From Rhizopus arrhizus (Eukaryota > Mucoromycota > Mucoromycetes > Mucorales > Rhizopodaceae), in the NCBI GenBank assembly GCA_024220505.1, contig JAKZZE010000039.1, forward strand, positions 1-64,000: a stretch of DNA of 64,000 bases, in the 5' to 3' direction. This document shows, one piece after another, positions 1,636 to 22,373 of the stretch. The notes under the pieces were generated by a model. That model saw nothing but the letters and a program-made list of their open reading frames with translations. It was not told where the DNA came from and made no database searches. Made by a program: the position numbers and the translations under genes. Position 1 is the first letter of the stretch. Each line of letters begins with the position of its first letter.

Positions 1636-1704
1636 AATATCGGCACCATACAGAGACGCAGAATATATTGACAGACATTTAGGTCCTTAAAGGGTGCCGA
1701 TATT
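1636..1704. repeat. 12-bp inverted repeat (possible hairpin)
   Basis: AATATCGGCACC at 1636-1647 is perfectly inverted as GGTGCCGATATT at 1693-1704, with a 45-bp loop. It lies in the subterminal part of element A that is not shared with B or C. A subterminal transposase-binding site is possible but unproven. Confidence 0.6.
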
Positions 1705-1867
1705 GACGTCGGCATAAATACCCATTCAATCACAGCTTTTGGCATCGTTAAACAGAAAAGCATATTGCTAAAAATTAACAGTGTGCAGAGTTTGCACGAT
1801 TATTTGCAGTGTCAAAAAGGAACCAAAGGCGATCATCGACCAAAATCCGACTTTGTCAAAGCAAAAG

Positions 1868-1882
1868 TGCTTCCTTGGCTCA
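1868..1882 (+). pseudogene. tRNA-Met 5' fragment (15 bp)
   Basis: TGCTTCCTTGGCTCA is identical to nucleotides 1-15 of the intact tRNA-Met at 22300. Including the AAAAG immediately upstream, 20 bp match. The fragment ends abruptly in the D-loop, where the 3' end of the minus-strand LINE begins. The remaining tRNA is not found beyond the LINE by eye. Element A ends exactly 56 bp upstream, the same spacing as element C to the intact gene. The 56-bp spacers of the two loci are not alike except next to the tRNA, so they look like two separate loci. Confidence 0.75.
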
Positions 1883-2175
1883 TGTTAAAGATTTTGTTTA
1901 TTGAGTGGCTACTGAGACTTTACTCTATGGAGCATAAGGTGTCTCGCCAGAAGTGCATAAATTTAAATAAAATTTGAAGTGGAGAAATAAAAAATAAAAA
2001 TTGTAAAAATAAAAAGGCGGGAGTGCAAAAAGGAAGCATTTTTCTTTTGCAAAAGAAAAAGCGAAAAAGAAATGAAATAAAAAGAAAAAAGAAATAAGAA
2101 ATAAGAAACCAAACCACACAATAGAGGCCATGAGTCCGGAGAGCAGAAGACAAGAGAAGAGATAAGATTTACACC

Positions 2176-5100
2176 TTAGGATGAGTTGTTGGAAGAAGGA
2201 GATTGGAGCTTGTCGAGCAACAATCGTCCAGAGGTATCCGCTGCCTCATTGCAAAAACCGCCGTCAGGGTGACAGATACGGTCTATGTCCAAAAGAATAG
2301 AGCAAACTGCCGGCCACCAGACAGACCATCGTTCAGCAAGCTGAGGTGAAGGGTAGGCAGGAATGACTTTTGGCAATTGATTAATAACATAATCTAGTGG
2401 ATTAGGTCTTGAACCAGGAGAGACTTGCAGACGGGACGCAACATTAAGGCAGACGATCAGATGAGATCTGGATGCGTTCGCAGAGCCACAGGAGCAAGGA
2501 GGAGGGCGACCAGGTAACCAACCCATACGCCAGCGCAAAAGTCTACTTCGGTCAGAGTTCAACATGGGAAGAGTCAAGATAGGATCAACTCCAAGTTGTA
2601 TTCGACATGCTGACAATAGTACAGGTGGTTTTGGAGCATTCAACTTTTTATGGAAAAATTGCTCTCGTAGTAGGAGTATAGATAACTTCACATTTTTGGA
2701 TGTTGCAAAGTAGTCCAGTCGCTCAGAATTCGAGGAAAGGGCACCACACAATGAGGGTTTCGTCCATATAGGATTAACTCGCGTCAAGGTGGGCCAGCGA
2801 AATCGCTTTGACTTTGGAGCAGTTTCTAGAAAAGAGAGCAGGGAGCCAAGTAGAGAATCGCTTTCAAGATGGTAAGCGCGTACAATGAACTTGAAACCGA
2901 GGATGTGAGCTCGTTCAGTCATTGACGGCAAATTGGTGATGTGCTTGAATACCGCGGTGGAAGTGGTCTTATGGCCACCAAAGGCAATACGCAGACAGAA
3001 ATCTTGCCCTTTTTCCAGTAACTCCAGTTCTTTGACTGTGAAAAGGCATAGACATAGACCATACTCAAAGCAAGGGCGAACAAAGGTTGCATATAGTCTG
3101 CTTGAGGTGATACGAGAGAAAGAAGATGTCCGGAGACTTAGCACTTGAAGAGTGTTACGCATGGCGGCTAGACCAGAGGCGACATTGCGTTGAAGCAAGA
3201 GTTTAGTATCAATTGCACCCTTTATGGAAAAAGGAATACCAAGATACGTAAATGAGTTACTGGATGGAATTTCTGTACCATAGAGTTTGAGTGGGCGTGC
3301 ACCATGTGCGTTGGGTGGATTAAGAACGACACATTTAGCCGGATTCCAGCGGTAACCAAGAGATCGAGAGTGGTTTTCGGCTGCACGAAGTAGTCGAGGC
3401 ATGGTATCAGGTGCACCAATAATGACAACATCGTCAGCATACAGCAATGAGTTGAGCCAGAGGCCGGAATGTTCAAAACGTGGCATGGAATCAAACACAC
3501 GAGACGAGGTAGGTATCGCAACAGAACGTAATACAGAGGGTAGACCATTAATGTATATTGAATACAGAAAAGGAGAGAGGATGGAGCCTTGTAAGACGCC
3601 AGTGCGAGGCCAGAACGAGTTAGAAGAGTGACCACCAAGTAGGACTTGAACACTTACATTGTCAAAGAGACTCTGTAGAATGCCAAGCATCGGTTCAGAC
3701 ACATGAGTTTCCAGTGCTCGCCAAATGACTGCACGGTCCACGGTATCGTATGCTGACTTAATGTCAAGAAAGGCCAAGACAGGAGGTTCACCAAAATGAT
3801 CTTCAGCATGCTGGCGGCATAGTTCATGGAGACAGAGGGCTTGATCAAGGGCACTACGCCGACGGCGAAATCCACCTTGGACAATGTCCAAAGGAGGAGC
3901 CGAGTCTTCCAAGGAGCTTTGCAAACATAACTCAAGTAGCTTCCGCAAAATTGACGTCAGACTAATTGGCCTGAAGTTTGCTGGATCGAGGGGATCACCT
4001 TTCTTGTATATTGGAACTATCTGCGCAACGCACCATGACTTGGGGACAGAGGACCATCGCCAGCAGAGCTGATAGAGAGCTGTTAAAATAGGAACAATAT
4101 CTTTCACCACTGGGAGTAGCATCTCAGTCCTCAGCTGATCCACTCCAGGAGCTTTACGTCTGGAGAGACGACGCACCAGAGCTTCACGAACTGTCTCAAT
4201 ACCAATAGGGCAGGAAGAGTTACCAGTAGGATGGGGGCCATCAGGTATAGGTGGGGCTGGATATCTATTCTGAGGCAGGAAGGAGCCAGAAAAGACTTGA
4301 CGAAAGTGATCAGCCATAACTTGGGCAGCCGCAGAAGTACCCTCAGGATGGGCAAATTGTGGTGTAGAGGTGCGGTTACGACGGATCTTGCGGATGATGG
4401 ACGTGGTTTCGTGGAGAGGACCAGAGGACAATTTCTGGCAGAACTGTTTCCAAGTCGCTCGGCGTCGACGTTGGAGTGCCAATTTAAATCGTCTGCAAGC
4501 AGCAGTAAAAGTGTCCCAGCGCATTGCTTTTTCTACACCAGCAGCACGTTTCCAATGTAGTCTACAGCGCTCGCGATAGTCAAATTCAAATTGTAAATCT
4601 GGTGTCCAGAACCATGCATTGTTTGTACTCTTGGGAGTACGACGGCCAACAGAATCATCAAGACAGGAGTGTGTGATGTCAGTAAAGGCCGTAGCCAGTT
4701 CATCAAAGTCTGGTTTAGAATTGTAGCTCTCCCTACATGGATCAAGAAAAGTGAGTAAATGTTCTTTAAATGGTGTCATACGCTCACTAATGAACTTCCC
4801 ATATAAACAGTCAGGCTCTAACATTCTACTAAGATTCCACACGAGCCGTGGATGTGTTGTGGACGGTGGTGGTGAGGTGGGCAAGACGCACGACAAGGTG
4901 ACTGGATGGTGGTCAGATCCCATTGATAAGTCCTCACGAACCTGCAGCTGTGGATTGACTAGATCGTTGTAGCTGAGGAATAAGTCGATGATACTGGTAT
5001 AGGCAAAGCCAGTATTCTCTCGACGAGCCTGTGAGCTGTATGTTGGGATACCAAAGGATAAGCGATGGTTCCAACAGATTAACCCTGATTCCATGATCCA

Positions 5101-5625
5101 TTCCAACAATAAAGTGCCTCTGGTTGTGGTACGGTTATCTCCAAGTAAGGAGTGATGACGGGCATTGAAGTCACCGCACACAAAGGTATTTGTTTGGGAA
5201 GGATGAGTCTGTGTAGGCAGCGACTTGAGGATCTCAATTGCCTCGGTATCATTTAAAGAGGGCGGCAGATATACACAGTGGATCAGAAAGGAAGACACTT
5301 GGCAAGATAAAACATACGGGGAGACAGATGGAAAGTGCGTAACATGGTAAGGAAATTTGGGATTGACAAGGAGTGTAATACCCATTTTACCACGATAGGT
5401 ACCTTCGACTGGCTGGCCATATGTATGATATTGTTTCCAATCAGTTGGATAGCGCAGAGGAGGAAGTAGCCATGTTTCGGTCATAAAGATCATAGAAGAA
5501 GAAAGGAGTGAATCGGTAATTTGATAAACAGCTTGACGAGCAAGACCATTTGAGTTCCATATTGTCATAGTAAGCATATTATTTAATTGGGCATAGGTTG
5601 GCATGTTGTTATTTATCTCACTCAT
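2176..5625 (-). CDS. LINE ORF2: endonuclease-reverse transcriptase
   Basis: An intact 1149-aa protein that nicks target DNA and copies LINE RNA onto it. The N-terminal apurinic/apyrimidinic-type endonuclease shows the TETW motif, GDFNARH near residue 150 and SDHHP near residue 237. Reverse transcriptase spans roughly residues 470-760, with KAPGVDQL, LDIKSAYDTVD, GVLQGSILSP and the catalytic YADD near residue 728. A Cys/His cluster (CSCG..H..C) lies near residue 1042, in the position of the C-terminal zinc-binding region of many LINEs. I see no RNase H domain. The start ATG overlaps the ORF1 stop in the tetranucleotide ATGA, suggesting translation by termination-reinitiation. There are no internal stops. 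Confidence 0.93.
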   Translation of the reverse strand: MSEINNNMPTYAQLNNMLTMTIWNSNGLARQAVYQITDSLLSSSMIFMTETWLLPPLRYPTDWKQYHTYGQPVEGTYRGKMGITLLVNPKFPYHVTHFPSVSPYVLSCQVSSFLIHCVYLPPSLNDTEAIEILKSLPTQTHPSQTNTFVCGDFNARHHSLLGDNRTTTRGTLLLEWIMESGLICWNHRLSFGIPTYSSQARRENTGFAYTSIIDLFLSYNDLVNPQLQVREDLSMGSDHHPVTLSCVLPTSPPPSTTHPRLVWNLSRMLEPDCLYGKFISERMTPFKEHLLTFLDPCRESYNSKPDFDELATAFTDITHSCLDDSVGRRTPKSTNNAWFWTPDLQFEFDYRERCRLHWKRAAGVEKAMRWDTFTAACRRFKLALQRRRRATWKQFCQKLSSGPLHETTSIIRKIRRNRTSTPQFAHPEGTSAAAQVMADHFRQVFSGSFLPQNRYPAPPIPDGPHPTGNSSCPIGIETVREALVRRLSRRKAPGVDQLRTEMLLPVVKDIVPILTALYQLCWRWSSVPKSWCVAQIVPIYKKGDPLDPANFRPISLTSILRKLLELCLQSSLEDSAPPLDIVQGGFRRRRSALDQALCLHELCRQHAEDHFGEPPVLAFLDIKSAYDTVDRAVIWRALETHVSEPMLGILQSLFDNVSVQVLLGGHSSNSFWPRTGVLQGSILSPFLYSIYINGLPSVLRSVAIPTSSRVFDSMPRFEHSGLWLNSLLYADDVVIIGAPDTMPRLLRAAENHSRSLGYRWNPAKCVVLNPPNAHGARPLKLYGTEIPSSNSFTYLGIPFSIKGAIDTKLLLQRNVASGLAAMRNTLQVLSLRTSSFSRITSSRLYATFVRPCFEYGLCLCLFTVKELELLEKGQDFCLRIAFGGHKTTSTAVFKHITNLPSMTERAHILGFKFIVRAYHLESDSLLGSLLSFLETAPKSKRFRWPTLTRVNPIWTKPSLCGALSSNSERLDYFATSKNVKLSILLLREQFFHKKLNAPKPPVLLSACRIQLGVDPILTLPMLNSDRSRLLRWRMGWLPGRPPPCSCGSANASRSHLIVCLNVASRLQVSPGSRPNPLDYVINQLPKVIPAYPSPQLAERWSVWWPAVCSILLDIDRICHPDGGFCNEAADTSGRLLLDKLQSPSSNNSS

Positions 5626-7157
5626 AAATCATCATCAACAGGTTCACCTTCACCTGTGAGGGATTTAGAGGAAGCAGCAGAGGAAACAACAAAGGTGTCA
5701 AGCACGTCAGACATGTCAGTATCAGCTTGGGTAGTGGTAGTACCGACAGGGAGAGAAGTACTTGACGTCTTCATGATGATGGTTTTAAATTGATCATCAG
5801 TGATCCATTGTTTGCGCATGAAATCACGAGCAACAGCAACACGAACAGATTCACGGATGTGATCAAGCGCACGGAGAAGACGAGTTTGGTGTATTTCGAC
5901 ACATTTGGATTGTCGAGCTTCCGGATCTAAATTGTTAAAAAGCGGGTTGCGCAAACGTTGGGCATCCAAAGGATCAAAATTATCAAGAGGTTTGACACCA
6001 GCTTTATCAAAAATAGATAAAAGTTCTTCCACATAATCATTGTGGATGAGGAGCGCAACAACATGGTTGTCAGGGAAGTGTACATCCAATACACGAGCAT
6101 TATTGATTTTAAGCTTACGTAACTTGGTACGAAGACTAGAAATAGCCTCCCGATACCGACTTGGTAGGTAGATGTACTGGTACCCATGTGATTCTGATAC
6201 CGTAGTGAAAGCACGAGTAATTGCCTGGAACTGTCGAGGTGTGATGCGACGAGTCCGCTTTGCCTTAGGTGTCTTAGGTGGTGTGGGGGCATGCTTACCC
6301 TTAGCTGCAACAGAGGCAAAAGAGATAGCAGAAGATTGGGTCGACTCTTCCGTTGTACTATTTTTGTTTACTATGGCAGAGGCATATTTTGAAGCTTCAG
6401 TGCCTTGTGTAGAGCTGGATGTGGGTGCCAAAACAGGAAACTCTACAGAGGTCGTAGATTGTTTCTCCAGTTCCTGGATTCTGATGTTGGCAGAATTCAA
6501 TTCAGCACGCAAGCGCTGGTTTTCTGCCACCAGATGTTCTAATTGGGATAGGCGGTCGTCATACTGGCGGAACCTATCCAAAATTGTGGAAACCCAATTA
6601 GGTGGTGGTGCATGTGTTTCTTCAGCCTGTGGCTGTGCAGATTCAACCGAGAGGGAAAAATTTTCAGTGCTCTTTACAGTTGCATGTGTTGCTACCTGAG
6701 GAAGCATAGTGATTCCAAAGTTCATGTTGCTGGGAATGTTGAAATTGTGTTCCGGTAGAGCTGTAATGGCGTTCTTTTTTGGTGCCATTTGTTTATTCTT
6801 TTTGTTAATTCCTGATGAGGGTCGAAAGACAGAATCAACAGGTAGAAGAGGTGGCGTACGGTCGGAAAACAGGCGCTTGCTTGGGGTTTCGACAGCTGAA
6901 GAGGAACTATCTGTTTCTATAATAGCAGTTGATGTGCTAACTTGTTGCTTTGTAGATGAAGCTGCTAATTTCTCGGAATTGGTAATTTCAAGATCTTGAG
7001 ATGTCGAAATGGTGCTTCTTTCTGCAGAAATTTTTGGTTGGGATGCGTTTGAGCTGTTTGGTGCTTTGCTTGTTGGGCTATGAATGATGTTTATGTTGTC
7101 TGGTAAGTTACTAACTATGATACTTTTAGGACACGTGATCGGGAATACACTGCACAT
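5622..7157 (-). CDS. LINE ORF1: RNA-binding/coiled-coil protein
   Basis: 511 aa, directly upstream of ORF2 and overlapping it by 4 nt. The N-terminal third is Ser/Thr-rich and low in complexity. A leucine-heptad coiled coil lies around residues 200-232 (LSQLEHLV..ENQRLRAEL). A basic segment (KAKRTRR) precedes a folded-looking C-terminal half containing ARVLDVHFPDNHVVALLIH, which could be an RRM-like fold as in other LINE ORF1 proteins; that fold is inference. The likely role is binding LINE RNA and forming the ribonucleoprotein. The ATG at 7157 is chosen as the first in-frame start. Confidence 0.85.
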   Translation of the reverse strand: MCSVFPITCPKSIIVSNLPDNINIIHSPTSKAPNSSNASQPKISAERSTISTSQDLEITNSEKLAASSTKQQVSTSTAIIETDSSSSAVETPSKRLFSDRTPPLLPVDSVFRPSSGINKKNKQMAPKKNAITALPEHNFNIPSNMNFGITMLPQVATHATVKSTENFSLSVESAQPQAEETHAPPPNWVSTILDRFRQYDDRLSQLEHLVAENQRLRAELNSANIRIQELEKQSTTSVEFPVLAPTSSSTQGTEASKYASAIVNKNSTTEESTQSSAISFASVAAKGKHAPTPPKTPKAKRTRRITPRQFQAITRAFTTVSESHGYQYIYLPSRYREAISSLRTKLRKLKINNARVLDVHFPDNHVVALLIHNDYVEELLSIFDKAGVKPLDNFDPLDAQRLRNPLFNNLDPEARQSKCVEIHQTRLLRALDHIRESVRVAVARDFMRKQWITDDQFKTIIMKTSSTSLPVGTTTTQADTDMSDVLDTFVVSSAASSKSLTGEGEPVDDDL

Positions 7158-8153
7158 AATTGTTATTTACAAAGTATGATAGTCCTCAGATATACCTCAG
7201 TTAATCGGGATTTATCATATTTAATGCAGCGTTATTGCAGTATGCCAAGTTGAACCTGTTTACGTTGAATGTTAACTATTTCAGTGCGGTAACCAAGTAT
7301 CACTGTTTGGCAACGCGCCGCTTCATTATTCTTTTAACGACGAAACACAAGTATGATGCCTTTCTATTGGACCTTACATGCTTGCGTTTCTCTTTAATAC
7401 CACTTCTTTATTGGCTTGTTACCTTTTCCTAATGCTTCCTTATTCGTCTGTTGCTCTTTAGCAATGCTTCCTTATTGGCTTATTATGGCTATATTTAGCT
7501 TTGGATGATTTATATTGGGAAATAAAATAGGCTTAAAACACGGTATTATTGGTCAAAAATGTAGTTTTATTCATTTATTTTGGGCTTTATTGCCATATTG
7601 ATTATATATTATTGGTTCATTACAGTATTACAAAAGGGTAGGGGAAGGAGGGAAAGCGAGCAGGGGATCCATGGAAACGATCAAATAAAAAAATTCAAAC
7701 GGTAGATGCAAAAAAAAAGGAAAATACGCTTACCTTGACCATAGAAGCAGCAAACAAAAGAGCGTAGTAAATAAAGCCCATAAAGAAAAGCGCGCCAGTA
7801 GTAAAAAAAATCCAAAGCTATAACAGGTTATAGACAACAGGGAGCAACAGAAGCCAAAGCATCTAAAGTTGTGTAAAATAAAATATTAATAAAAGTAAAC
7901 CATGATGTACTTGATTTATTTACCTTAAAGCTCTTTTACTAACAAAACAGGATGCCAAGACATCCATAAAGCTTCAGCCACGAACTAAAGGAAGCTAATT
8001 TTACTTTTAATAAAGATTACTGAAAGATATGAATGTATTTACCTTTTGAGCAGATATGCAAAGAACCAAAGTAACTACAGCAGCCATGAATACATGTATG
8101 AATGTCTACTACAGCATGTTAGAACTAAAGTTTTCTTTTTTTCTTTTTCTTTT

Positions 8154-8189
<36 letters not shown>

Positions 8190-8399
8190 ACCTTGCGATA
8201 ACCGGAGCGATGTTGAAAAAGGAAATTGCTGAACAGAAAGAAAAAAAAAGGAACAAAATTTCGAAAAGGAAATCTTTTTATATTTTTTTCTTTTGCTATA
8301 CTAAGACTGAGTTTCATTGTAAACTCGATGATATTTAAGAAAGATTCAATTTTGATGCCAAGCTCACTTGTCTTTATTTCAAATTACTCTTATAACAAT
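7158..8399. other. Gene-poor region between LINE and accessory gene
   Basis: AT-rich, with a long T run at about 8149-8185. It probably contains the LINE 5' UTR at its left. On the minus strand there are four GTAAG/GTAAA donor-like sites (complements near 7733, 7922, 8041 and 8188) and TTTAG acceptor-like sites (near 7866, 7986 and 8114). Splicing two of them would give a tiny ORF beginning MAAVVTLVLC. I could not build a convincing gene. Two short repeats AATGCTTCCTTATT occur at about 7430-7480. Confidence 0.5.
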
Positions 8400-9739
8400 A
8401 TGTCTGATCGTGGTATTCAATTCAACCCTGCTCCTGCCAATGCTCGTGGCTCTAACTCTGTTGGGCAACCAATCGCTGTTCCTTCTCGTGCTGTTGTTCC
8501 TGAGCTTGCTTCAAGCGATGCCATTCCAGATAGCTTTGCCTATCCTAGGCCTGGTTTTCCTCCCATGACCCATGTTCAGAAGCGAATGCGCCAAGCCGAA
8601 GACATGGAGACTGATGAAGTATCTCTTTCTTTTTCCATTTATATGGAGCTAAGAAAAGAAAATGATGGTTTGAAGGAGATGCTTCGAAAAGAGCAAGAGG
8701 AAAAGCAGGCCTTGCAAGTAGCATACAGCAAGCTCAAAGAAGCATACGATGAGCTTGAAGCAGAATCAGGCAAAGGCGCAAAGCCGATTGCTACTGCTGT
8801 CAAAGTAAGAACATTAAAATTCAATTTTAAACAAATATACTAATCGCTTTTCTCTGAAATATAGGATGCTGTGAGAAATCACTACAACAACCTGCCGCCA
8901 TCATCTCAATATGTTCTTGAAAAGCCTCTGAAGTCTGCTGAAAATCAAAGAGTATTTAAATTGCTGCAGGATTATGTGAATAGCCATTATTCATATAAAA
9001 ATACCAACAACCGCGATTTGCGCAAGTACCTCGAGCGCCAATATTATACAAAGAAGGCGGGAATATCCACAGGTGAAGAGGAAGATCCAGTTGAAGAATT
9101 TATAAGAAAACGAAAAGCAGCAAAAGTCACCCGTAGAAGCGCTGTAAGTGCCACATAAAATATTGTAATCGCATAACTAACTTTGTTTTTTAGAAAACAA
9201 GAGCTCGTAAGGCTATATACGAGCAGTACAAGGATCAAGGCGTTTACGAAAGCTATCCAAACTGTGAGTATTTGCTTCAACAGCAATACATGTCTGAAGA
9301 AGAAGACATGTACAACAATGAAACAATCGATAAGGTGGAGGAAATTCTTCTGGAGCAAAATCCAGATAGAATGGCTCCTTTTACTGAAAAGGAACGTATG
9401 TCTGTCTTGTGCAAGAAAACAGTTGATTATTTTGAAGTTCGCGTACCAAAGTACAGATCACCTGCTGTAAGTTTAATTAATATCTTTTTAAGCGCAATCA
9501 ACTAATTATCCAATATTCAGTGTACCGAATTTTTTAAGCTGTTGGATGATCAGATAGCAAGTGACAAGGCAAAGAGGCAAAGAACTGGAAATAACAGCAT
9601 CCAATTTCTTCCTCGTATACAAAGAAAATGCTCGTTGCCTGTTCCTGACTTCATCAAAAAAGAAAATATAACTGAAGAGAGTATCGCTTGGGCTTTTGGT
9701 GGTGAAATAGAGTTGGATGAAATCAACTTGCTGTTTTAA
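8400..9739 (+). CDS. CACTA-like accessory protein (TnpA-like), 4 exons
   Basis: Exons 8400-8804, 8865-9143, 9194-9466 and 9521-9739 join in phase to 391 aa. Introns are 50-60 bp with GTAAG donors, and the first has a TACTAAT branch point. The N-terminus is Pro/Ala-rich; residues about 80-125 form a coiled coil (LRKENDGLKEMLRKEQEEKQ). The C-terminal half is charged. It aligns by eye with the accessory protein of element B: shared RxPxxRS, then an F..L segment, then a final WAF motif, plus a similar region around NQRVFKLL. I therefore read it as the accessory, probably DNA-binding gene of a third, decayed CACTA-like element. The biochemical function is unknown. No transposase gene accompanies it. 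Confidence 0.7.
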
Positions 9740-10464
9740 AAAAAAAAAAATAAAAAACTTGTGAAATAAATAAAACAAAAAAAAAATGAAAGCGGTGTTT
9801 AGATCTTTAAATTTACTTTTTTTTTTTTTACCTTTGTTTCATTCTAGATTTGGTTACAGATAAAATCAGTTTGCCGTTTGTATTGTGGTCTTTGAATCTT
9901 ATTTTAGATTTCTGTTTGATGCTTTCCACCTTCGTCATATTTGGTCCACTTTTATTTTTTTTTTAATGAAAAAATTTCTAAAGTACTTTTTTTTTAAAGC
10001 CCAAATTTAAAACACTCGTTTTTTTTATTCAAGTTTAAACAATACATTGAATGGAGATTCCTTTTGTAATGTCAATGCTGGGAATGTATTTTTTTTTTTT
10101 TTTCAAAAGTACTTAGTAACAATATACTTTTTCTTTTGTTTTTTAACCTTTTCATAGAAATCTCAAGACGTGTAGCATAATAGACATTCATTCCGTTGCC
10201 GCCTTTTTTTTCTTTACTCTCAAAAAATAAAAATGATTATCAAAAATACTCTGTCTTTTTTATGCCGTGATCTTACTATTTAAAACATATCTTTTTCAGC
10301 TTTAAAACAAGTTTAACTTCTTTAGAGCCAAAAGAATCCTTCTTTTTTTTATATATTTTATTCAATCTTTTAAATTTTCTACCATATTCACATTCTTTTT
10401 TTTTTTGTTCCAATTTATAAACACATACTTTTATACTTATTATTATAGCGATATTATGCACTTA
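9740..10464. other. AT-rich non-coding stretch
   Basis: Homopolymer A and T tracts after the accessory gene. I see no gene, tRNA or clear repeat. It is probably the remaining body of the decayed CACTA-like element that lost its transposase. Confidence 0.5.
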
Positions 10465-12099
10465 CAGTAGGTGAAAAAATACGAGCAACCTTTTGGCAAA
10501 ATCGACTTTTTTCGCTATATCAAAAGGTGCATGCCAACTACCGGCATGGGACTCCTATGGTATATTTTCGGGGTCATGTGTCTTGAAACAGTAAAGGTCT
10601 CATGTAGCAATACTGGAAATTGAGAGAGGAATGAGAATCCGAATTTAAAAATTTGACTTCCGACCAGCTTAAATTATGTACGGTAATCATACGTTTACAT
10701 TTAAATCAATAAAGAACATATCGGAAGACTATACAGCGTACTTGTATAGGACTGTGAGCTTTCCTCATTGTGTCCATATAAAAGCAAGTGCAACTTCAAG
10801 AGCCCTTGGCTTCTTTTTTTTTGCTCAATTTCTCTCACTGCTTCTCATCATCATGCCTAAATCTATACCAATGGAAAAGCAATCCAGAAATAAAAGATAT
10901 ATCACTGAATAGCATGAAGCTAGAGGATATCGCAGATAAATATTACGTTCATTCTCCCACAGTTAAAAGGTATACTAGGAAGCTTTTTCCATGAAATTCA
11001 CATCAGTCGGCTGGAAGACATGCTATTGTCTCTTATGCCATGAAGCACTATATCGAACTGTGTATTATTACTGGTCATCGAACAATAGCTAAAAAGCTAT
11101 TCAGGGAGTTAGGTAAGTTTGGTTACTTGTTGATGTACCGTTCAGGAGTAAACGCGCTGAGATCCATAAACTGCCACCGAGAGCTAAAAAAAAGAAGGCA
11201 TTTTTAAAAAAGGATCATTGAAAAAAGCAGATGACCTGAACAAAAAGGCATCGCAACTGGTCAAGTCAAGAGTGACGAACAGTAGCGTTCTCAGCTGAAG
11301 CAAAGATTAGCATCTAGTGATCAGATGGAGTAAAATAGTATAGAGTAGTATAAAATGACATTTTGCTCCCTCATCACATCGACATTACAGTAAATCACTG
11401 CAGCGGTAGGATGAACATGTGTTGTCACATACCTACTCAGGGACCAGCATAGACATGTCAGCTTTATGACCATAACATAAACTCAACGACTTGTCTGCAT
11501 ATACTTAGCAATATTTACATGAATACGTTAGAGTACCATTATTTGAAGACATCTGATGTATACCTTCAGAGTGATAGCGGCGTAAAGTATAACTTAAAAA
11601 TCATAACTGTATAGGTACGCGGTATCAGTGTAAGGTATATAAATTATTGGTGTGGTCAAAGTCTGGATTTAAATCATATAAAGCATGTTTGGCATCAGCT
11701 CAAACTTAATCTGCCACCATATGAAGTCGGAGAAAGAGGTGTCAGAAAGATTTAGGAATTAGTGGATGTAGAGCGAAATAAACTCAATGCAAATGCTTGC
11801 AAGAGGTACATCAATAGTATGCCAGCCAAAGTAGAAGCACTATTTAAAGCAAAGGGAAGATATAGAAAATATTAAATAAACATAGCGAATTTTGAAAAAT
11901 CATCATTGACTTTTTTATGACTGTCTTTCCCTTTTAAAAAGCTTGTACTTCAAGTACAGTCAATCTCTTTAGTGTATTGTATGTATCTTTGTTGCCTTAA
12001 TTAGTTTGTGTGATATCAAAGCTCTGGCGAATGTACACACGAAAAAAAAAAGATATGAAGACAAATCGAACAGAGGTTGCTCGTATTTTTCACCTACTG
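10465..12099 (+). mobile_element. Tc1/mariner element, dead (copy M1)
   Basis: Terminal inverted repeats CAGTAGGTGAAAAAATACG / CGTATTTTTCACCTACTG, flanked by TA on both sides (10463-10464 and 12100-12101). Length is 1635 bp. The ends and the internal relic are related to the copy at 36278-37926. It sits between the accessory gene and the 12102-12647 flank, that is, inside the presumed decayed CACTA-like element. Confidence 0.9.
10853..11875 (+). pseudogene. Tc1/mariner transposase relic
   Basis: Starts with MPKSIPMEKQSRNK and ends with a recognisable C-terminus (YEVGERGVRKI stop ELVDVERNKL...RYRKY). A degraded SLDLNHIKHVW stands where SPDLNPIEHVW is expected. Many frameshifts and stops separate the pieces, and the DET and QDN catalytic segments are not readable. 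It is homologous to the transposase at 36505-37545 but much older. Confidence 0.8.
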
Positions 12100-12101
12100 T
12101 A

Positions 12102-12647
12102 TATAAGAGTTTCATCCCTCTTATTCATATGTGCCTCTTCACTCTTTCTTCTTTTTTTTTTTTTTTTCTTTTGTTCATTAGTAACCAAAATAAATCTCCT
12201 TTTGTATTAAACAAAGTTTTTTTTTTGTAAAATACGACATGAGAGCCGAAGAATGCTTGAAAAGAAAACGCCACGACTCAATCACTTGGATTTCCGAGCT
12301 TGTAGGCCAATAGAACTGTGTTTTCGATCTTTGTTGAAGTTAAAAAATATTGCACTGAAGTTGAAAAAGCATAGTCTTCCCAATTTGTAATCTTGTACGG
12401 CATCATGTAGCACAACAGAAAATTATTTATTTTTTTAAAAAAATACAATGTCTTTTTATTCAACAAACATATTATATACTTTTGATTATTTTTATAGATT
12501 TACAATCTATTTTTTTCAAGCTTTCTTCTGATATAAAAATCAGCTTTCTAACATTTAAATCCGAGTTCTCACTCATTTAATAGAATTACCACTATCAAAA
12601 AAGATCAACTTTATCAACTTGGATAACGGTGATTGGGTGCAGTGATA
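12102..12647. other. Flank ending in GTGCAGTG; possible end of a decayed CACTA-like element
   Basis: No gene. The last bases before element B are GGGTGCAGTG followed by ATA. GCAGTG is the terminal hexamer of B and C, and ATA is the target duplication of B. The end would therefore be that of an earlier element (with the accessory gene at 8400-9739) stacked at the same site. No matching left end was found, so the assignment is tentative. Confidence 0.4.
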
Positions 12648-12989
12648 CACTGCAAATAATAGTGCAAATTCGTTACCTGATTGACTAGCAATCTTGCGAA
12701 ATAATTTACAATCGTGTACAATCAGGTAAGAGATTTATCCACGCACAGCCTCCTGTCTCTGCCACAAATCGTGTAAGTTATTGTTCGCCCTTTGGTTATG
12801 TGATGATGCAAGATTTGTGGCCAACACAGGAGACTGTTGGGAGACTTTTTCGTTAACTGATCTTTCAAGATGGATCTTTCATCAGTTACGTTGTGGCTCT
12901 TGTTTATTATCAATTTGATATCTAATGGTGCTTGGCAACCAATCACGCTTTGTAAAACACTACTTTATTTGTCTTTTTGCTCTTTTATA

Positions 12990-13110
12990 AACCACTCATA
13001 TTGCCTTATATACTTCTTTATTGACCACTCATATTGCCTTATATACTTCTTTATGAACCACTTATATAGCTTTATATACTTCTTTATTGACCATTCATAT
13101 TGCAATAAAC
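12990..13110 (+). repeat. 34-bp minisatellite in element B (4 units)
   Basis: Four units of ACCACTCATATTGCCTTATA plus TACTTCTTTAT with small changes. The same array has three units in A and in C. Confidence 0.85.
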
Positions 13111-13310
13111 ATTGCTTTATATACACAAAAAAATAGGGATTTTGTTTATAAAAAATAGCTTTTTTTTTTATTTGAATAAAATAATAATAATACATGGTAT
13201 TTCTTTGCTTGTAGCGTTTTAAAAGTGTACTTGACTTACCTAATGTCACCAGAATAGCAGCATCTAATCTAAAAATACATCAATTAATCTCGTGGAACTC
13301 AAGAAGTTCT

Positions 13311-13345
<35 letters not shown>

Positions 13346-13979
13346 AAGCAGTACTCCTCTATAATAATTATTAGTTATCGAGTATATAGTAAAAGTAATA
13401 GTACCTTGCTTTAGATGGACTATGAGAAAAAAAAAGAAAAAAAAAACCCCCCCACCAGCCAAGCTTATACTAACAAGTAAAAGAAGAAGCAACTATAATC
13501 CTGGGAAAAAGACTTTATAAAGACCATTTGAAACATCAAGAAAGCAACCAATACAATTTTACTAAAGTACAAGTACCATTAGAACAATAATAGAGTACAT
13601 ATAATATTAAGAACTTACCTTTTAGAGAGAATGTTTTGTTTTAAAAAAAAAGAAAAAAAAAGGAAAAAAAAAAGGAAAAAAAAAGTACTATTTTATAGCC
13701 TCATTTTACCAGTGTTACATTTACCCACTATCGATTAAAAATAAGTCTTCTTTAATACTGCTTAACTATTGAAACATTCAGAGAGACTATTCATAAACAG
13801 TTTAAACTTTTTCTTCTTTTTTTTTTATTTAAATGTAATATCTTTAACACCAAAGGCTTTTTTTTTCTTCGCTTTTTTGTAAAATAAATGAGTATCACCT
13901 TGTTTTCTATTCATCTTCAATTTATTTTGTACTCCTGTTTTTTTTTTTTTCTTCCTTTTTATATAATTTGTTTTAAAAA

Positions 13980-15230
13980 ATGTCTCGTCGTGCTGCCACC
14001 CCCATCAACGTTCCCAGCAATGCTCCCAAGAGAGCAAGAATTTCCGTGAGCATTGCTGGATCATCATCCACCGTTGTTCCTGTTTCTGCTCCTGCTCCTG
14101 CTCCTGCTCCTACTCTTGCTCCTGCTCCTGTTTTCGCTTCTGTTCCTGTTGCAGGCTTCAGTAGCTTTACAGCTCCTCGCTTGGAGAGCCCTGTTGGTAC
14201 TGAAGCCATCAGAGCAGCCTCTGGTGCCGCACCAGAGATAATAGCTGCTCAGATACAGCAATTCCAACAATTGCTGCAGCAACAGCAACAGCAGCAGGAA
14301 CAGCAACAGCAGCAGCAACACCGAGCTTCAGAAGCTGAGGTCGACGCGGCCAAAAAAGAATGCAGTGTAAGTTTAGGACATATTTATTAAATTAGTAATT
14401 GTAATTTAATAACTATATTTTATACCTTTCTGTGTCATATAGAGCTATTTAGCAGAATACTACCGTGATTACGTTGTTGGTCGCAGAAGCGAATTTGACT
14501 TGGACGTTACCTTCGCCCATAAAAATAACAGAAAAGTCAAGGCATTGTTGTATGAGCAAGCCAGAAAGCACCATCGTTTTGATTTGCTCACCACCTCACA
14601 AGTAAATGCAATAATTAGGAGCAAGTATTCCTACATGATGAGCAAGGCCAAGGGGAAGACAGTTGTTTCACCAAAAACTACCTGTCGTAGCCGTATAAAT
14701 ACGGTGAGTATTTAATATTTTTGAAGATTATACTATAAAATATAGAAAATACTTACATTGATACCTTACGATAGAAACTCTCTAACAGGAGATCTGTTTA
14801 TATGGCTAACCCTTCCGCGTTCGACGCCCGTTTCCCGTTCGCTGGTAAAATTCTGACTGTTGACTGGACGTCAGATGAAGAAGATGGACCAGAGGACGAG
14901 AACGGTCGTACGTTCGTGGTCAAACGGCCATCATTTAGAAGCAACGAAGTAAGCAAAATGTTGTTGACAAATTTCATTTTCTAATATACCTTAATTAATC
15001 TATAGGTGGTGCAATTCCACGAAGAGTTGCAAAAAAGATACAAGGAGTCGATGAAGAAAAAGGGGGCTCCACCAACTATTAGAAGAATAATAGAAAACGT
15101 TGAAGTGGAGTTCCCCGACAAACTTGATGATGCCGATTTTCCTTCCTGGGCTTTTTCTTCTTCTGCTCTTGGTTTTCCAACCTCTGTTTCTGCTTCTTCC
15201 TCTTTTGCGACTTCCAGTTCAATGCAGTAG
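13980..15230 (+). CDS. CACTA-like accessory protein of element B, 4 exons
   Basis: Exons 13980-14366, 14443-14703, 14775-14948 and 15006-15230 join in phase to 348 aa; all introns have GT..AG ends. The N-terminal exon begins MSRRAATPINVP, has an Ala-Pro repeat run (residues about 40-58) and a Gln-rich stretch (about 88-115). Exons 2-4 form a basic then acidic region (NNRKVKALLYEQ, WTSDEEDGPEDE, RPSFRSNE, RRIIENVEVE). The end is Ser-rich with a WAF motif shared with the gene at 8400-9739. The role is unknown. By analogy with the TnpA of En/Spm it may bind the subterminal repeats or aid excision; that is inference. It is convergent with the transposase, with 162 bp between their stop codons. 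Confidence 0.8.
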
Positions 15231-15392
15231 GCATTCTTCCCCTTTTTTTTTTTCTTGGTTTGTTGTTTCTTCACAAATTGAATAAAATTTTTTAAAAAAA
15301 AGTCTATTGAATGATTCTTTAGTAAAATATATAATAAAACAATAATAATAATAATAATAATAAATGAATGAATGAACGCTTCGACATAGTTT
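15231..15392. terminator. Shared 3' region between two convergent genes
   Basis: Contains AATAAA-like signals on the plus strand and a TAATAA/AATG microsatellite (about 15338-15375). It probably serves as the 3' end for both element-B genes. Confidence 0.5.
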
Positions 15393-18294
15393 TTACATAT
15401 AGATCCGTCTTGGGAGAGAAAGTGTAAGAATATGATTATCTAAATATGACTTCACTGCTACTGGATTGTGAATTTTGTGAACAGGAAGTATATTTTGTTG
15501 TGAGACTGGGTCAAACTGGTTTTTCCACACTTGAATGCCAGTATCATCAAAGGAGGGAAAGTGATGGGTCGCATGGCTGTACCAATTGACAAATGCAAAG
15601 TAATGAGTGTAGTTGTTAAATGAATGTGTAAAGAGATAAGAAATTTGACCAATGCGTATTTCATTGTTGATAATAGCTTGGATAATGCAGGAGGATGAAG
15701 AAGTTGAAGTATTTTTTGATGATGTATATTTTTGTCCAAGCAAGTTTATATTTTTAAATGAATGAATAATATTGCTGATAAACGTGCCAGGGATGAGTGC
15801 ATAGGTATAGGTGTAGTAATTAATCAATTGTTCATAGTGTTCTGGGCATATAAGTTGGGTTCGATTGTCGAAATTTAAAGGAAAGGATGTGGGTGGCAGA
15901 GGCTCACTACCAGTTATTGTTGAATTGAATAAGCTAGGTCCGTCTATGAAACGAGAGTAATCAAATGGCGTTAAACCACTCTCGTCATTCGTAACCTCAC
16001 CTATCTTTTCTATAAATTTAATTAGTAGGAGTATGTCTTCGTTTGTTGAATTGATAAAGGAATGTAAAGAATATACTAGATCTTGTGTGTGAACATTTTG
16101 AATGAACATAGTAGCATAAGTTGTTTCAAATCCAGTCTTAAAATTGATGTTTATATGTTTCATATCGCCATTAAGACGTTCAAAGCCATAAAGCCAAAAG
16201 GAGTATGATGGACCAAAGTCCAGGAAGCTTTCTTTCAAATGGAGATGCATATGCATATTTGGAGTGGGCATAGATTCACCATACAGCTCGACACAGGTCT
16301 TGCCAAAGTTTTTCATCAATAGATGTGCGGTATCTATGTCTTCTACTGTGATGGAAGGGCCAGTGACCAATTTTACAGCATCGACATACCGCAACCAGTT
16401 TGTAAAATGTTCACCTGCCAGTTTTTGTTTGAGCAGGAAAGGTGACAGCACAACAACCCAGGTTCTCCACTCATCTGATTTCATATTAGCAAAAGCACCA
16501 GAGATTTTTCCTATTTTTTTTTTAAAAAAAAAGAAAAAAAATAAGTATTTTGTTCCACCATGAAATAAAGCTTTATTCCATGTATATATAAACACGATCA
16601 AGCAGTATTACATACCTTCAGATAGCTTAGCATATTGCTGAGGAACGATGATAGTGGTCGACTCTGCTGCCATTGCTGGAAAATCAGTAGAAACAAGCAA
16701 GCTAAAATCCTGCCAGACTTCAATCATTTTTTTGGGTGTTCCAAGAAACAAGTTATGCATTGGATCGACAGTTACATATCTCACCACATCAAAGTAAGGA
16801 AGTCGATGTACTTCACTCCACTTTGTACCAGAACTTGCCTGTTTTTCTTCTTGTTGTGCCTTGTGCGTAGCAGTCAACCAGTCATACGCATCAAATCTTT
16901 GCTGTTCCCACGTTCTTTGCACCCAGTTTTCATCGTTGAAATCAGAAAAGTTTGGCTTTGAAGACCTGGTACCAGTTGATAGACGGCCAAAAGCAGTTGA
17001 GCACTTGTTACATGCTTTAGTAGCCATGGCGCCCATGTATCCAGCTACTTTTCTTGCTGCAGGCATATCACAATTGATGGACATCAATGCCACACGAACT
17101 ACTTCTCCGTTAGGATTTTGGTAAGTGGGCATTACAACACCATTGTACAGTACAAGCAATTCATCTACCAATGGCTTCAAGAAGTTTTGGATTTGATCAT
17201 CGTTGGGCTCATGTGGTCCAGGAATAACACCTGCCAAAACGATGTTGGAAAACTTCATACGTGTATTTCTTGGCAGGTTGTTAATTGCAAGGTAAATGGC
17301 ACCACTAGAATGCTTCATGTTGTCACTTGGCTGGAACCAATCCACATTCAAGGATACCATCAATGATCTTGGTTGACTGGTAAAAATTTGCCCGTTTGAA
17401 TCCACAAGCTGATTCCAAACTCTGCCATCGTATATGTCGAACATAACATCTTCATCAACTGATCTTCTTCTCCATTGCTCAATTTGTTGTTCAAAACTGG
17501 GTCGCATAAAGAACTTTTTTAAAGTCTCAGTAATTGAGTTGTAGGGATACTCAAGCACTGGCTTTAAACTGCTGCCTGCAAAAAGAGCATTTCCACATGG
17601 TTGTGCTTGTCGATAAGGGTTGTTAGGGAAGCGTACATAACCACAGGAGCGAGAATGCAAGCTTCCAGAAGTGTAAACGCTTCGACAAGCAGAGCAAACA
17701 AGAAAACGGGACAAACCATTGCTGGCAGAGGAATAATTGACCATAGTACGGGCAGTAGAGATCTTTGTAGGAATCTCCATACCATGGCCAAGAGAACGGA
17801 CAAAGAAGGAAAGAAAGGCCAACAAGTCTTCACCGGCCTTCACCGAGAGGTGCTTTGCTTGAAAAAGCACAATGAACAACAGCAAAAGGTGACGAAGCTG
17901 TTCTTCATTACTCATTCCCTCCTCTTCGTCAATATTCATTTCGTCTAACAAGTTGCAAAATACATTTCAATAAATAAAACCTTTCGTATATTAAATACTT
18001 TGTTGATTAAAAATATACCTTCAGTTGCTGGCTCAGGAATGGCTGATGAGTATTCGACAGTTTCCTCCCCGTTGTCGTTAGCTTCAGATACTCTTCTTGA
18101 TTCTATTTTTTTTTTTTTTGAACATTAGCACATTTGGATTTTTATTAAAAAATAAAACAAAAACCTCTATTTCTAACTCTGTCGATAAGTTCATGGCCTC
18201 TTACAGTTCTCTTTGCAAGCATTCTAAATCCATTGGGATGGTTGCTGCATTCAGAACAGGTGCAAATAATTTTGGTGGCGTTGAAGTTGTTCAT
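15393..18294 (-). CDS. Tnp2-type (CACTA/Plavaka-like) transposase of element B
   Basis: Exons 18294-18165, 18102-18019, 17944-16616 and 16510-15393 join in phase to 886 aa with no internal stop. The N-terminus has a CTCSECSNHPNG cysteine cluster, and a second cluster lies near residues 155-172 (CSAC..C). The catalytic core shows LNVDWFQPS (Asp near 273), a conserved IPGPHEP block, NCDMPAARK (Asp near 364), CNKC (about 383) and DPMHNLFLG (Asp near 465). Exon 4 carries the conserved MHLHLKESFLDFGPSYSFW region. These blocks are those of the Tnp2 transposase family of fungal CACTA-like elements; which acidic residues are catalytic is inferred from that family. It is expected to cut both ends of B and to act in trans on A and C. 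Confidence 0.92.
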
Positions 18295-19595
18295 GTTTAT
18301 ATTTTTTAAATTTGGAAATAGTAAAGAAAATAGGTAGAAAGAGAAAATATGCCTGATAAAAAAAAAAAACGTTAAATTTAAAAAACAAAGTCGGCGCTTA
18401 AAGTAACCTTTTTTTTTCCCTTGTTTTGTTTTATGGAATGCATGAGATGCCCAAGATACAAAAGATACAAAAGAAAACTCAAGTATTGGTCAAATATAAG
18501 TTTATAAAAAAAAATAACAACAACCAAGTCTAATATCGGTTTCTTTTTTTTTTTTTTTTTACATTAGAAATTCCTAATGGGACACATTCGGATGATGAAC
18601 ATTAACCTCATGAGAGAAGCTGTTCTTTCCAACATGACAAAGCTATAAGAATATCAAACTTATATTACTGCTTGCTGCTGAAAATCTCTTTTTAGTAAAG
18701 GAAGCTGCCACTGCTAACATTTCTAATAGCTAATGGCTAATTGCAAATTACATCATGTGCAAACATAAAGTAAGTAATGAACTAGTATAAGTTTAAAAAC
18801 ATATATTCTATTATATTATCTGTCATAAAAAATAATAAAGCAATCTATTTACTTGAAAAACAAAAACTTTTGCTTGTATTTGTCAATTATAACTGCCTTG
18901 TAATAAAATGTGAGCAAAGCTTCTTTCTTCTTAGAATATACAAGTATTCTTTTGTTATAACATAAAAGCATTTGCATTTCTATAAAGTATATTTGCTCTA
19001 GATTATTGTTTCCATTTGAATAAGGAACCTTTTATTGCTATATTCTTTTTTTTTTCGCTGTCTTTTTTTTTTAACTTTGTCTTTTTTTTTAACTTTGTCT
19101 TTTTTTTTTTTTACTTTTAATCTTTCAGCTTCTTTTTTTTTTTTTTACTAAACGCAACTATTTTGTTACGTTCTGTTACACATTTCCAATGAGCTTAGCT
19201 AAAGATCACAGATTGCCTTCCTAATATGTATTCTTCTGTACAAAATAATCGCATGGTGCTTTTGATTTCCGCATTTTGCCCTCAAAAATAAAAAAAAGAA
19301 AATATCGGTCTTTAAACAATGGAGAGAAATACGCTTTCCAAAAAAAGATCGTTTGTAAAAAAAAGACATTTCTTTAAAAATGTGAATAACTCCATGAATA
19401 TTTACCCTACAAATAAAATAATAACATCGTTAAATTTCTTTATTTTTTTCTCATCTAAATCGTTTTTCAAAATTCGAAAATGATCAATACAGCAAGATTT
19501 AATTTTTTTCACGAAAAAAAGTAACAATTTGTTACCCAAACGAAGAGCAATCTTGCGCAATCCGGTACCTAATTGGAACGATTATTTGCAGTGAT

Positions 19596-22243
19596 CACTG
19601 CAAATAATAGTGCAAATTCGTTACCTGATTGACTAGCAATCTTGCGAAATAATTTACATTCGTGTACAATCAGGTAAGAGATTTATCCACGCACAGCCTC
19701 CTGTCTCTGCCACAAATCGTGTAAGTTATTGTTCGCCCTTTGGTTATGTGATGGTACAAGATTTGTGGCCAACACAGGAGACTGTTGGGAGACTTTTTCG
19801 TTAACTGATCTTGCAAGATGGATCTTTCATCAGTTACGTTGTGGCTCTTGTTTATTATCAATTTGGTATCTAATGGTGCTTGGCAACCAATCACGCTTTG
19901 TAAAACACTACTTTATTTGTCTTTTTGCTCTTTTATAAACCACTCATATTGCCTTATATGCTTCTTTATGAACCACTTATATTGCTTTATATACTTCTTT
20001 ATCGACCATTCATATTGCAATAAATATTGCTTTATATACACAAAAAAATAGGGATTTTGTTTATAAAAAATAGCTTTTTTTTATTTAAATAAAATAATTA
20101 TAATATATAGTATTTCTTTGCTTGTAGCGTTTTAAAAGTGTACTTGACTTACCTAATGTCACCAGAACAGCAGCATTTAATCTAAAAATACATCAATTAG
20201 TCTCGTGGAACTCAAAAAGTTCTCAAAAGAAAAAAGAAAAAAAAAAGCCAAGCTCAAGAATTCAAAGACACAAGGACGCAAGGATTCAAGGACTTGAGCA
20301 CTCAAAGCAAAAGAAAAGACATCAGTACTTAAGAACCAAAGTAAAAACAAGGAAAGAAACAGAAAGAGGCCAAAGCAAAGCAGCATTCATCTATAACATT
20401 TATTAGCTATCGTGTATATGTAGTAAAAGCAATAGTACCTTTCTTTAGATAGACCATGGGAAGAAAACTAGCTAAGCGTATACTCATAAGTAAAAAAAGC
20501 AGCAGGCATCTATAATAGTTATTAGCTATTGAGTGTATGTAGTAAAAGTAATAATACCTTGCTTTAGATGGACCATGAAAAAAAAAAAAAGAAAAGAAAA
20601 AAAGAAACTACTCAAGCTTATATCAACAAGGAAAAGAAGAAGCAATGATAATCCTGGGAAAAAGACTTTATAAAGACCATTCAAACCATAAAGAAAGCAG
20701 CCGATACATCTTTACTACAGTAAAAGCACCATTAGAGCTGGAATAGAATATATATAATATTAAGAACTTACCTTTTATAAAAAAGAGAAGAAGAAAAAAG
20801 AAAAAAAAAAAAAAAACAGAAGTGCGTTTTTTGTAGCCTTATTTTACCAATGTTACACTTATTCAATGTCTATCCATATTAGAAATCAAAAACTGTTGCT
20901 TTTCATATAGTTTACATTTAATGGTATCCCAAAAGATAACTGATACATTACTTGAACAAGGTTTATTACTTGAATGCAATATGTTTAGCATGAAGGGTAT
21001 TATTTTATTTTATTTTTTACTTGAAATAAAAAAAAAAGTCGGTATCTTAACAAATTATAGTAGTAAAACAATATCTTTTTTTTTTCTCCCTTGTTTTGTT
21101 TCATGGAATACACTAGATGACAAAGGTACAAAAGATAAAAAAGAATGCTCAAGTATTGATCATATGTAAGTTTATAAAAAAAAATAATAGCAACCAAGTC
21201 TAATGTCGGTCTTTTTTTTTTAAATTAGGAATTCCTAATGGGACACATTCGGATGATGAACATGAGCCTCATGAGCAAAGTTATTCTTTCCAACACGATA
21301 AAAATATAAGAATATCAAACTTATATTGTTGCTTGTTGTTGAAAAGCCCTTTTGATAAAGGAAGTTGGCAATGTTAACATCTCTAATGGCTAATGGCTAA
21401 TTGCAAATTACACCCATGTGCAAACATAAAGTAAGTAATGAACTAGTATAAGCTTAAAAACATATATTCTTTTATATTATTTGTCATAAAAAATAATAAA
21501 GCAATCTATTTACTTGAAACACAAAAACTTTTGCTTGTATTTGTTAATTATAACTGCCTTGTAATAAAATTTGAGCAGAGCTTCTTTATTTTTTTATTCT
21601 TTTTAGAATACACATGTATTCTTTTGTTATAATGCAAGAACATTTGCATTTCTATAAAGTATATTTGCTGTTAAATTATTGTTTTCATTTGAATAAGGAA
21701 TCTTTTATTGCTATATTCTTTTTTTTTTTTACTCAGTCTTTTTCTTTAACTTCGTCTTTTTTTTTTACTTTTAATTTTCCAGCTTCTTTTTTTTTTTTCC
21801 CAAACGCAACTATTTTGTTACGTTCTGTTACACGCTTCAAATGAACTAAGCTAAAGATCACAGACTGCCTTCCAAATATGTATTCTTTTGATCAAAATAA
21901 TCACATTGTGCTTTTGTTTTCCGCATTTTGTCCTCAAAAATAAAAAAAGAAAATATCGGCCTTTAAACAATGGAGAGAAATACGCTTTCCAAAAAAAGAT
22001 CATTTGTAAAAAAAGACATTTTTTTAAAAATGTGAATAACTCCATGAATATTTACCCTACAAATAAAATAATAACATCGTTAAATTTCTTTATTTTTTTC
22101 GTATCTAAATCTTTTTTCAAAATTCGAAAATGATCAATACAGCAAGATTTAATTTTTTTCAGGAAAAAAAATAACAATCCGTTACCCAAAAGAAGAGCAA
22201 TCTTGCGCAATCCGGTACCTAATTGGAACGATTATTTGCAGTG
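19596..22243 (+). mobile_element. CACTA-like non-autonomous element C
   Basis: 2648 bp from CACTGCAAATAAT (19596) to ATTATTTGCAGTG (22243), with duplication GAT on each side (19593-19595 and 22244-22246; the left G is also the last base of B). The body is collinear with the two outer parts of B and lacks the 13.86-18.39 kb coding cassette. No real coding region is present. It inserted at the end of B after B was in place, 56 bp upstream of the tRNA-Met gene. Confidence 0.92.
19938..20020 (+). repeat. 34-bp minisatellite in element C (3 units)
   Basis: Same unit as in A and B; one unit fewer than in B. Confidence 0.8.
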
Positions 22244-22299
22244 GATACTTTTATCCGGTTGTACAAAGGATAAAAAGTGATCGAAAAGCGAAAGAAAAG

Positions 22300-22373
22300 T
22301 GCTTCCTTGGCTCAGCCGGTAGAGCGTCAGTCTCATAATCTGAAGGTCGCCAGTTCGATCCTGGCAGGGAGCA
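22300..22373 (+). tRNA. tRNA-Met (CAU), elongator type
   Basis: Acceptor arms TGCTTCC and GGGAGCA pair over 7 bp with one T-G pair. The D arm begins GGCTCAGCCGG and also holds the A box (22308-22319). The anticodon arm TCAGT-CTCATAA-TCTGA has the T-T pair at the base of the loop seen in eukaryotic elongator tRNA-Met. The T arm GCCAG-TTCGATC-CTGGC holds the B box. There is no intron and no encoded CCA. A T5 run at 22413-22417 may end Pol III transcription. It is flanked 56 bp upstream by element C and 59 bp downstream by a solo LTR, so it acts as an integration landmark. Confidence 0.97.

Follow-up and report, generated by a model that had tools for sequence, protein, structure and literature searches.

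CACTA-like elements upstream of a tRNA-Met gene

The stretch of DNA that was analysed, hereafter called the window, is 64,000 bp long (G000:C33:1-64000) and belongs to a genome of 50.26 Mb in 41 contigs, which was searched as a whole. Three CACTA-like elements (D, B and C) are arranged in a row before a tRNA-Met gene, and a fourth element, A, ends at position 1811 (Table 1). B and C carry the CACTR-type terminal inverted repeat CACTGCAAATAAT at both ends, and the end motif of C occupies 22231-22243 on the minus strand. Element C is an internally deleted relative of B, its two sides being 92% and 88% identical to B. The tRNA-proximal end of A is of the left type, and the orientation of A is opposite to that of B and C. 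Element D has the termini CACTGCACATAAT on the left and CACTGCACCCAAT on the right, the latter of which was matched genome-wide.

The transposase and accessory genes of B are convergent. The transposase matched the Tnp2-type Pfam family PF02992 (E 2.1e-19, 70 bits against a cut-off of 28.6), and the frame of its third exon (452 aa), which shares 98% identity with an unnamed database protein and 72% with a Rhizopus delemar protein, is predicted to adopt a RAG1/Transib-like fold. A RAG1/Transib-type DDE RNase H-like catalytic core, as in CACTA/EnSpm, is predicted for the transposase of B. As regards the subterminal short repeats to which a TnpA-like second protein binds in CACTA/EnSpm, direct repeats occur in at most two copies in the terminal 400 bases of B. 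Residues 115-340 of the B accessory protein are 92-94% identical to its four best matches, which are R. delemar and R. arrhizus proteins. The protein matches of the window indicate a mucoralean host resembling Rhizopus. A sub-threshold likeness of this protein to TFIIA alpha/beta (32.4 bits against a cut-off of 36.2) and the PF03153 label on three of eight of its homologues may both be compositional. No transposase frame was seen in element D (7148-12644); its accessory protein gave no Pfam family above cut-off, and the accessory proteins of B and D gave no BLASTP match to each other. Between about 10464 and 12109, D is interrupted by what appears by eye to be a Tc1/mariner element, degraded but bounded by inverted ends of its own. 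Elsewhere in the window, two Ty3/gypsy-looking elements (26197-30993 and 49183-53952) have nearly identical second frames, and fragmented frames at 56137-58615 resemble, by eye, another transposase of the same general kind.

Table 1. Coordinates of the tRNA-Met gene, the CACTA-like elements and the LINE in the window
Feature	Position	Strand	Basis
Element A, right-hand part, CACTA-like; extends past the left window edge	1..1811	.	terminal motif, BLAST to B left side in reverse
CACTGCAAATAAT terminal motif of element A	1799..1811	-	motif search
57-bp spacer of A: X1-family retroelement-like 5' end and tRNA gene upstream bases	1812..1868	.	
Left copy of the 20-bp LINE target-site duplication; holds first 14 nt of tRNA-Met (1869-1882)	1863..1882	+	
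LINE, 3' end at 1883, interrupted at 7147 by D	1883..7147	-	
LINE ORF2, endonuclease and reverse transcriptase	2176-5628	-	
LINE ORF1	5622 to about 7147	-	
Left ATA target-site duplication of D	7145..7147	.	sequence comparison of flanks
Element D, second CACTA-like family, CACTGCACATAAT ... ATTGGGTGCAGTG	7148..12644	.	termini, frames, duplications
D accessory gene, 4 exons, 391 aa predicted	8400..9740	+	GT-AG splicing
ATA target-site duplication copy at the D/B junction	12645..12647	.	
Element B, 6946 bp, apparently complete transposase gene	12648..19593	.	termini, BLAST, splicing
B accessory gene, 4 exons, about 348 aa	13980..15230	+	GT-AG splicing
B transposase gene, 4 exons, 886 aa, no internal stop, Tnp2 family domain	15393..18294	-	
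Left GAT target-site duplication of C; the G is also the final base of B	19593..19595	.	
Element C, 2648 bp	19596..22243	.	termini, BLAST
57-bp spacer of C: GAT duplication, LINE 5' end to 22294, then tRNA upstream bases	22244..22300	.	
Right copy of the 20-bp LINE target-site duplication	22295..22314	+	
tRNA-Met(CAT) gene	22301..22373 (Rfam tRNA model); 22300-22374 (ARAGORN)	+	

Successive insertions at one tRNA-Met gene

The original prediction had placed the end of C, at 22243, exactly 56 bp before the tRNA-Met gene, and this spacing was recovered as 56 bp with the ARAGORN start and as 57 bp when counted to mature nucleotide 1. The same spacing had been claimed for element A at a second tRNA-Met locus. 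The spacing holds, as beyond the end of A at 1811 the tRNA-Met 5' sequence begins after a 57-bp spacer; the second locus does not, as the copy beside A is a 14-nt remnant of a gene that was split by a LINE, and the idea of two independent tRNA-Met genes was rejected. What lies beside A is the 5' part of this one tRNA-Met gene, moved away from the rest, so that locus A represents a further insertion at that gene and not a second gene. Nevertheless, the spacers of A and C are not copies of one spacer, because their sequences differ.

The LINE target-site duplication, AAAAGTGCTTCCTTGGCTCA, is present in two copies, at 1863 and 22295. The LINE itself (1883-7147 and 22244-22294) lies antisense within the tRNA gene, after tRNA nucleotide 14, and near-identical copies of it adjoin tRNA-Lys in loci L063 and L068. 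Its ORF1 is 99.8% identical to these two copies, which are free of CACTA elements. By the duplication and the intact copies, the spacer family of the window is a LINE.

D, B and C were inserted successively at this one site, each with a 3-bp target-site duplication (ATA for D and B, GAT for C), at 56, 56 and 57 bp from the tRNA, respectively; the value of 56 is made up of 53 bp and the 3-bp ATA, and that of C is greater by one. Serial entry follows because removal of C with one GAT copy restored the right flank of B, ATACTTTT, because removal of B and then D with one ATA copy each restored a continuous LINE 5' end, and because L063 and L068, which represent the empty site, read through the D/B insertion point uninterrupted with a single ATA.

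Distance between element ends and tRNA genes across the genome

The exact 13-base terminus CACTGCAAATAAT occurs 545 times in the genome, and 57 of these ends have a Pol III B box 88-118 bp outward. In 55 of the 57, the 5' nucleotide of a tRNA or tRNA-like gene is located 50-59 bp away with a mode at 57 (50 bp, 1 end; 53, 1; 54, 2; 55, 5; 56, 14; 57, 16; 58, 11; 59, 5), whereby tRNA starts were placed by hand-chosen tags and for five of the 55 the target is a degenerate tRNA-like sequence whose position was set by eye. The remaining two comprise one unplaced end and one end at 34 bp in L060, which was rejected as a true exception, as the outer end at the same locus lies at 57 bp. When 30 fetched loci of the 57 were subjected to ARAGORN, a tRNA was called in 25, of which 24 were at 54-59 bp and one at 33 bp; the other five (L036, L037, L038, L053 and L056) hold tRNA-like sequences that ARAGORN did not call. 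The called tRNAs represent 13 amino-acid types (Gln, Ser, Asp, Lys, Val, Arg, Phe, Gly, Glu, His, Leu, Thr and Tyr), and the number of targeted types rises to 15 with Met in the window and Trp in L072 and L073. Degenerate tRNA-like genes, which are possibly tRNA pseudogenes or SINEs, serve as targets like true tRNA genes in L036, L037, L038, L053, L056, L103 and L111.

A B box further outward, at 119-149 bp, was found for eight ends, and the tRNA start was at 57-59 bp in seven of them, one of the seven being the outer end at L060. A mirror search with the reversed B box, which would detect elements within about 25 bp of a tRNA 3' end, yielded no ends. In the D family, 19 of 19 ends lie 55-60 bp from a tRNA.

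The same relation was obtained from the side of the tRNA genes. Among 63 tRNA genes selected with the Rfam model and blind to the transposons, 18 have a first-family end and three a D-family end at 50-59 bp; the chance expectation for the first family is about 0.004 (545 ends, half pointing each way, an 11-bp interval). The first 30 genes of this set have 11 first-family ends within 1.5 kb, all upstream and none downstream, eight of them at the usual spacing and three at 543-802 bp.

The distance plot that had been proposed as a check, run in part (two outward B-box windows, one mirror window and 50 other ends), thus gave a sharp peak. The concern that the spacers might be duplicates of one locus was not borne out, as the 58 spacer-plus-tRNA strings form 53 clusters at high similarity and 30 spacer families; copying of a single duplicated locus was therefore rejected.

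Insertion sites and orientation

The first six bases at the insertion point showed no base consensus among the 58 strings, and target sequence was rejected as the site determinant. Apart from the duplications in the window, GGA and GAT duplications were seen by eye in an array on contig C1, and a four-element array upstream of tRNA-Ser (L010-L015) is nested with 3-bp duplications, likewise by eye. For at least one array element (L003/L004) a matching duplication is absent.

Orientation was scored by a shared subterminal block, which in B marks the side where the transposase gene begins. Of 30 loci, 29 have this transposase-5' side pointing toward the tRNA, and only L054, which has an intact tRNA, presents the other side. 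For comparison, the block is present on 17 of a run of 30 consecutive C1 ends, a run in which four ends face a tRNA. For the D family, end types were counted among the 19 tRNA-facing ends, and 18 of these belong to a single type. At split tRNAs, the element faces the tRNA in the usual orientation at L094, L098 and L106 and in the reversed orientation at L022 and for element A.

Ends that do not face a tRNA gene

Fifty ends among the first 100 of the 545 were sorted by eye, 30 of them with flanks and 20 with 300 bases. The 30 are consecutive ends on C1, of which 17 abut another CACTA-like end, four face an intact tRNA, one a split tRNA, three a LINE-type 5' end with no visible tRNA and five something else. 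The 20 further ends, which do not include L035-L039 (ends of the same contigs that belong to the B-box set), comprise one tRNA, two tRNA-like, three split tRNA and three tandem cases, two with a LINE-type 5' end and no tRNA, and nine with something else. The ends that do not face a tRNA need not contradict targeting, because the distal ends of an array are expected to face other DNA.

The tRNA gene or the LINE end as the ruler

Among 69 spacers with a placed tRNA, 58 contain a recognised LINE-type 5' end, as judged by hand-chosen motifs. Similarity to LINE ORF1 or ORF2 was detected at L025, L037, L063, L068, L074, L076, L077, L093 and L110. Apart from the family in the window, the spacer families are presumably LINE-like, to judge from sequence that is common to spacers before different tRNAs. 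The 5' end of one LINE-like family (L020, L021, L025, L048 and L050) itself reads tRNA-like, with parts resembling an A box and a B box; it is split by a CACTA element in L020/L021 and followed by reverse transcriptase similarity in L025. At L070 (785-1418), an X1-family element of about 630 bp is located between another LINE-type 5' end and tRNA-Trp, showing layered insertions at one tRNA gene that has no first-family CACTA end.

Since the spacer usually resembles the 5' end of a tRNA-targeting LINE, targeting of LINE ends had to be examined. According to this explanation, the elements recognise the 5' ends of tRNA-gene LINEs, by their promoter or bound factors, and insert about 47 bp inside the LINE, and the constant tRNA distance would follow solely from the position of those LINEs, whose ends lie about 10 bp before tRNA genes. 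It is in line with the frequency of LINE-type ends in the spacers and with L005, L007, L016, L096 and L105, where an element end lies near such a 5' end and no tRNA is visible. However, variation in the gap between LINE and tRNA is absorbed by the LINE-end distance and not by the tRNA distance. For the 58 ends entered in the regression (11 of the 69 spacers having no LINE motif and eight further rows, outside the 69, having no tRNA tag), the tRNA distance has an sd of 1.48 and a slope of 0.05 against the gap, and the LINE-end distance an sd of 2.51 and a slope of -0.95. Within LINE families, the tRNA slope is 0.35 +- 0.19 and the LINE slope -0.65 +- 0.19, the two differing by 1 by construction; these values fall between both ideas, nearer to the tRNA as the ruler though less sharply.

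Several loci bear on the same question. The spacer at C23:136078 is used at the usual distance, and a stretch of 31 bases in it has a single occurrence in the genome when up to 3 mismatches are allowed; a repeated LINE end is therefore not needed. L036 and L056 each have a tRNA-like gene at the usual distance behind a spacer that contains no recognised LINE end. In the LINE-type family Y (four ends), LINE distances range from 48 to 54 and tRNA distances from 56 to 57. Moreover, the spacer families are unrelated in sequence, which also argues against recognition of LINE ends, and we regard that explanation as improbable. Because of the regressions, the single-copy stretch at C23:136078 and the spacers of L036 and L056, the data favour the tRNA, rather than the LINE, as the ruler.

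Discussion

A fixed distance, the lack of a site consensus, a strong orientation bias and the serial reuse of sites, by which older elements are pushed outward, are established here, as are 3-bp duplications at the closely examined sites. Taken together, it is very probable that these are CACTA/EnSpm-type cut-and-paste transposons that direct their integration to a fixed position, about 57 bp upstream of mature nucleotide 1 of tRNA and tRNA-like genes of many isotypes.

From these properties we infer guidance by Pol III factors, in particular TFIIIB. The transposase complex, with or without the accessory protein, would dock on the Pol III initiation complex, where TFIIIB (TBP-Brf1-Bdp1) would be the most likely partner, and the docked complex would then cut the first free DNA upstream. 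Docking of this kind would explain a ruler that is blind to sequence and keeps its value after a LINE has replaced the upstream DNA. Upstream of the Pol III start, the footprint of TFIIIB takes up roughly 40-50 bp, and cutting at 57 bp from the mature 5' end would therefore fall in the first free DNA beyond this footprint. More specifically, an element protein, either the transposase or the accessory protein, might bind TFIIIB in a fixed pose and deliver the ends in one orientation to this DNA, which we put forward tentatively, as a possibility falling a little short of probable. If true, it would constitute protein-guided, Tn7-like site choice by a eukaryotic RAG-related cut-and-paste transposon. 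TFIIA binds TBP, and the TFIIA likeness of the B accessory protein, if real, could reflect a mimic that reaches TBP inside TFIIIB.

An explanation that dispenses with Pol III factors is that the transposase reads the tRNA sequence (A or B box) and cuts at a fixed reach. The distance rule alone cannot separate such DNA binding from protein docking, and all counted targets contain a B box, although the search pattern itself required one. The targets comprise 15 amino-acid types together with degenerate tRNA-like genes, and the distance to the 5' end holds at 57-59 bp in genes whose B box lies farther from that end; both points argue against direct reading of the tRNA, which we therefore consider unlikely. 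That insertion is broad and elements survive under selection only beside tRNA genes is hardly credible. The flanks of tRNA genes are considered safe sites for retroelements in compact genomes (PMC5006619), but selection for harmless positions would produce neither a peak with an sd of about 1.4 bp, nor one prevailing orientation (29 of 30 loci), nor the repeated use of identical base pairs.

Retrotransposons were already known to target Pol III genes with positional precision, and Dada elements to do so within the RNA gene. In the present case a CACTA-type DNA transposon targets from outside the gene, by distance and with polarity. It offers a natural model of how a transcription complex can steer a RAG-related transposase, adds a further enzyme class to those that have converged on tRNA flanks and might serve as a means of placing DNA where it does no harm. 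The same targeting accounts for the build-up of layered arrays of LINEs and DNA transposons at the tRNA genes of this fungus. To our knowledge, no member of CACTA/EnSpm has been known to target Pol III genes, and among the matches listed in a literature search by titles and abstract openings, in which few subscription journals were covered, none described CACTA/EnSpm elements with a preference for sites upstream of tRNA genes.

Comparison with known systems

The likeness to CACTA/EnSpm consists of the CACTG terminus, the 3-bp duplication, the Tnp2-family transposase and its predicted RAG1/Transib-like fold. Plavaka elements, in contrast, are described with the termini TGT..ACA or CATCA..TGATG (PMC12730594), whereas the termini found here are CACTG..CAGTG. 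EnSpm elements have been reported in Mucorales, with no link to tRNA genes in the available text of that report (PMC7928374), and for Rhizopus oryzae, Table 2 of the genome report gives En/Spn elements as 0.68% of the assembly, with no tRNA link in that source as available (PMC2699053). The same report describes Ty3/gypsy LTR elements of R. oryzae that co-localise with tRNA genes (PMC2699053); these are tRNA-linked mobile elements in a closely related host, but they are LTR elements and not CACTA.

Among the retrotransposons, the non-LTR element TRE5 of Dictyostelium inserts about 50 bp upstream of, in principle, all tRNA genes, for which the B box is needed and the ORF1 protein contacts TFIIIB subunits (PMC5006619, PMC5633606). 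TRE5 and the Rhizopus elements thus share a position upstream of tRNA genes. However, TRE5 is a retrotransposon with a reverse transcriptase, whereas element B encodes a Tnp2 transposase and the reverse transcriptase at the locus belongs to a separate LINE. Ty3 and Ty1 are LTR retrotransposons that integrate upstream of Pol III genes, with Ty3 using TFIIIB (PMC7175516). Ty3 does so at 0-20 bp and Ty1 over about 1 kb (PMC7175516), whereas a single peak at 57 bp was observed here.

Among DNA transposons, Dada elements target tRNA and other small RNA genes, where they insert inside the RNA gene, in tRNA genes at nucleotides 8-13 or near the anticodon, with family-specific targets that share sequence similarity and with duplications of 6-7 bp (PMC8869645, PMC3706591). 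In contrast to Dada, the elements described here insert outside the gene, 50-60 bp upstream, at many isotypes, with no consensus and with 3-bp duplications.
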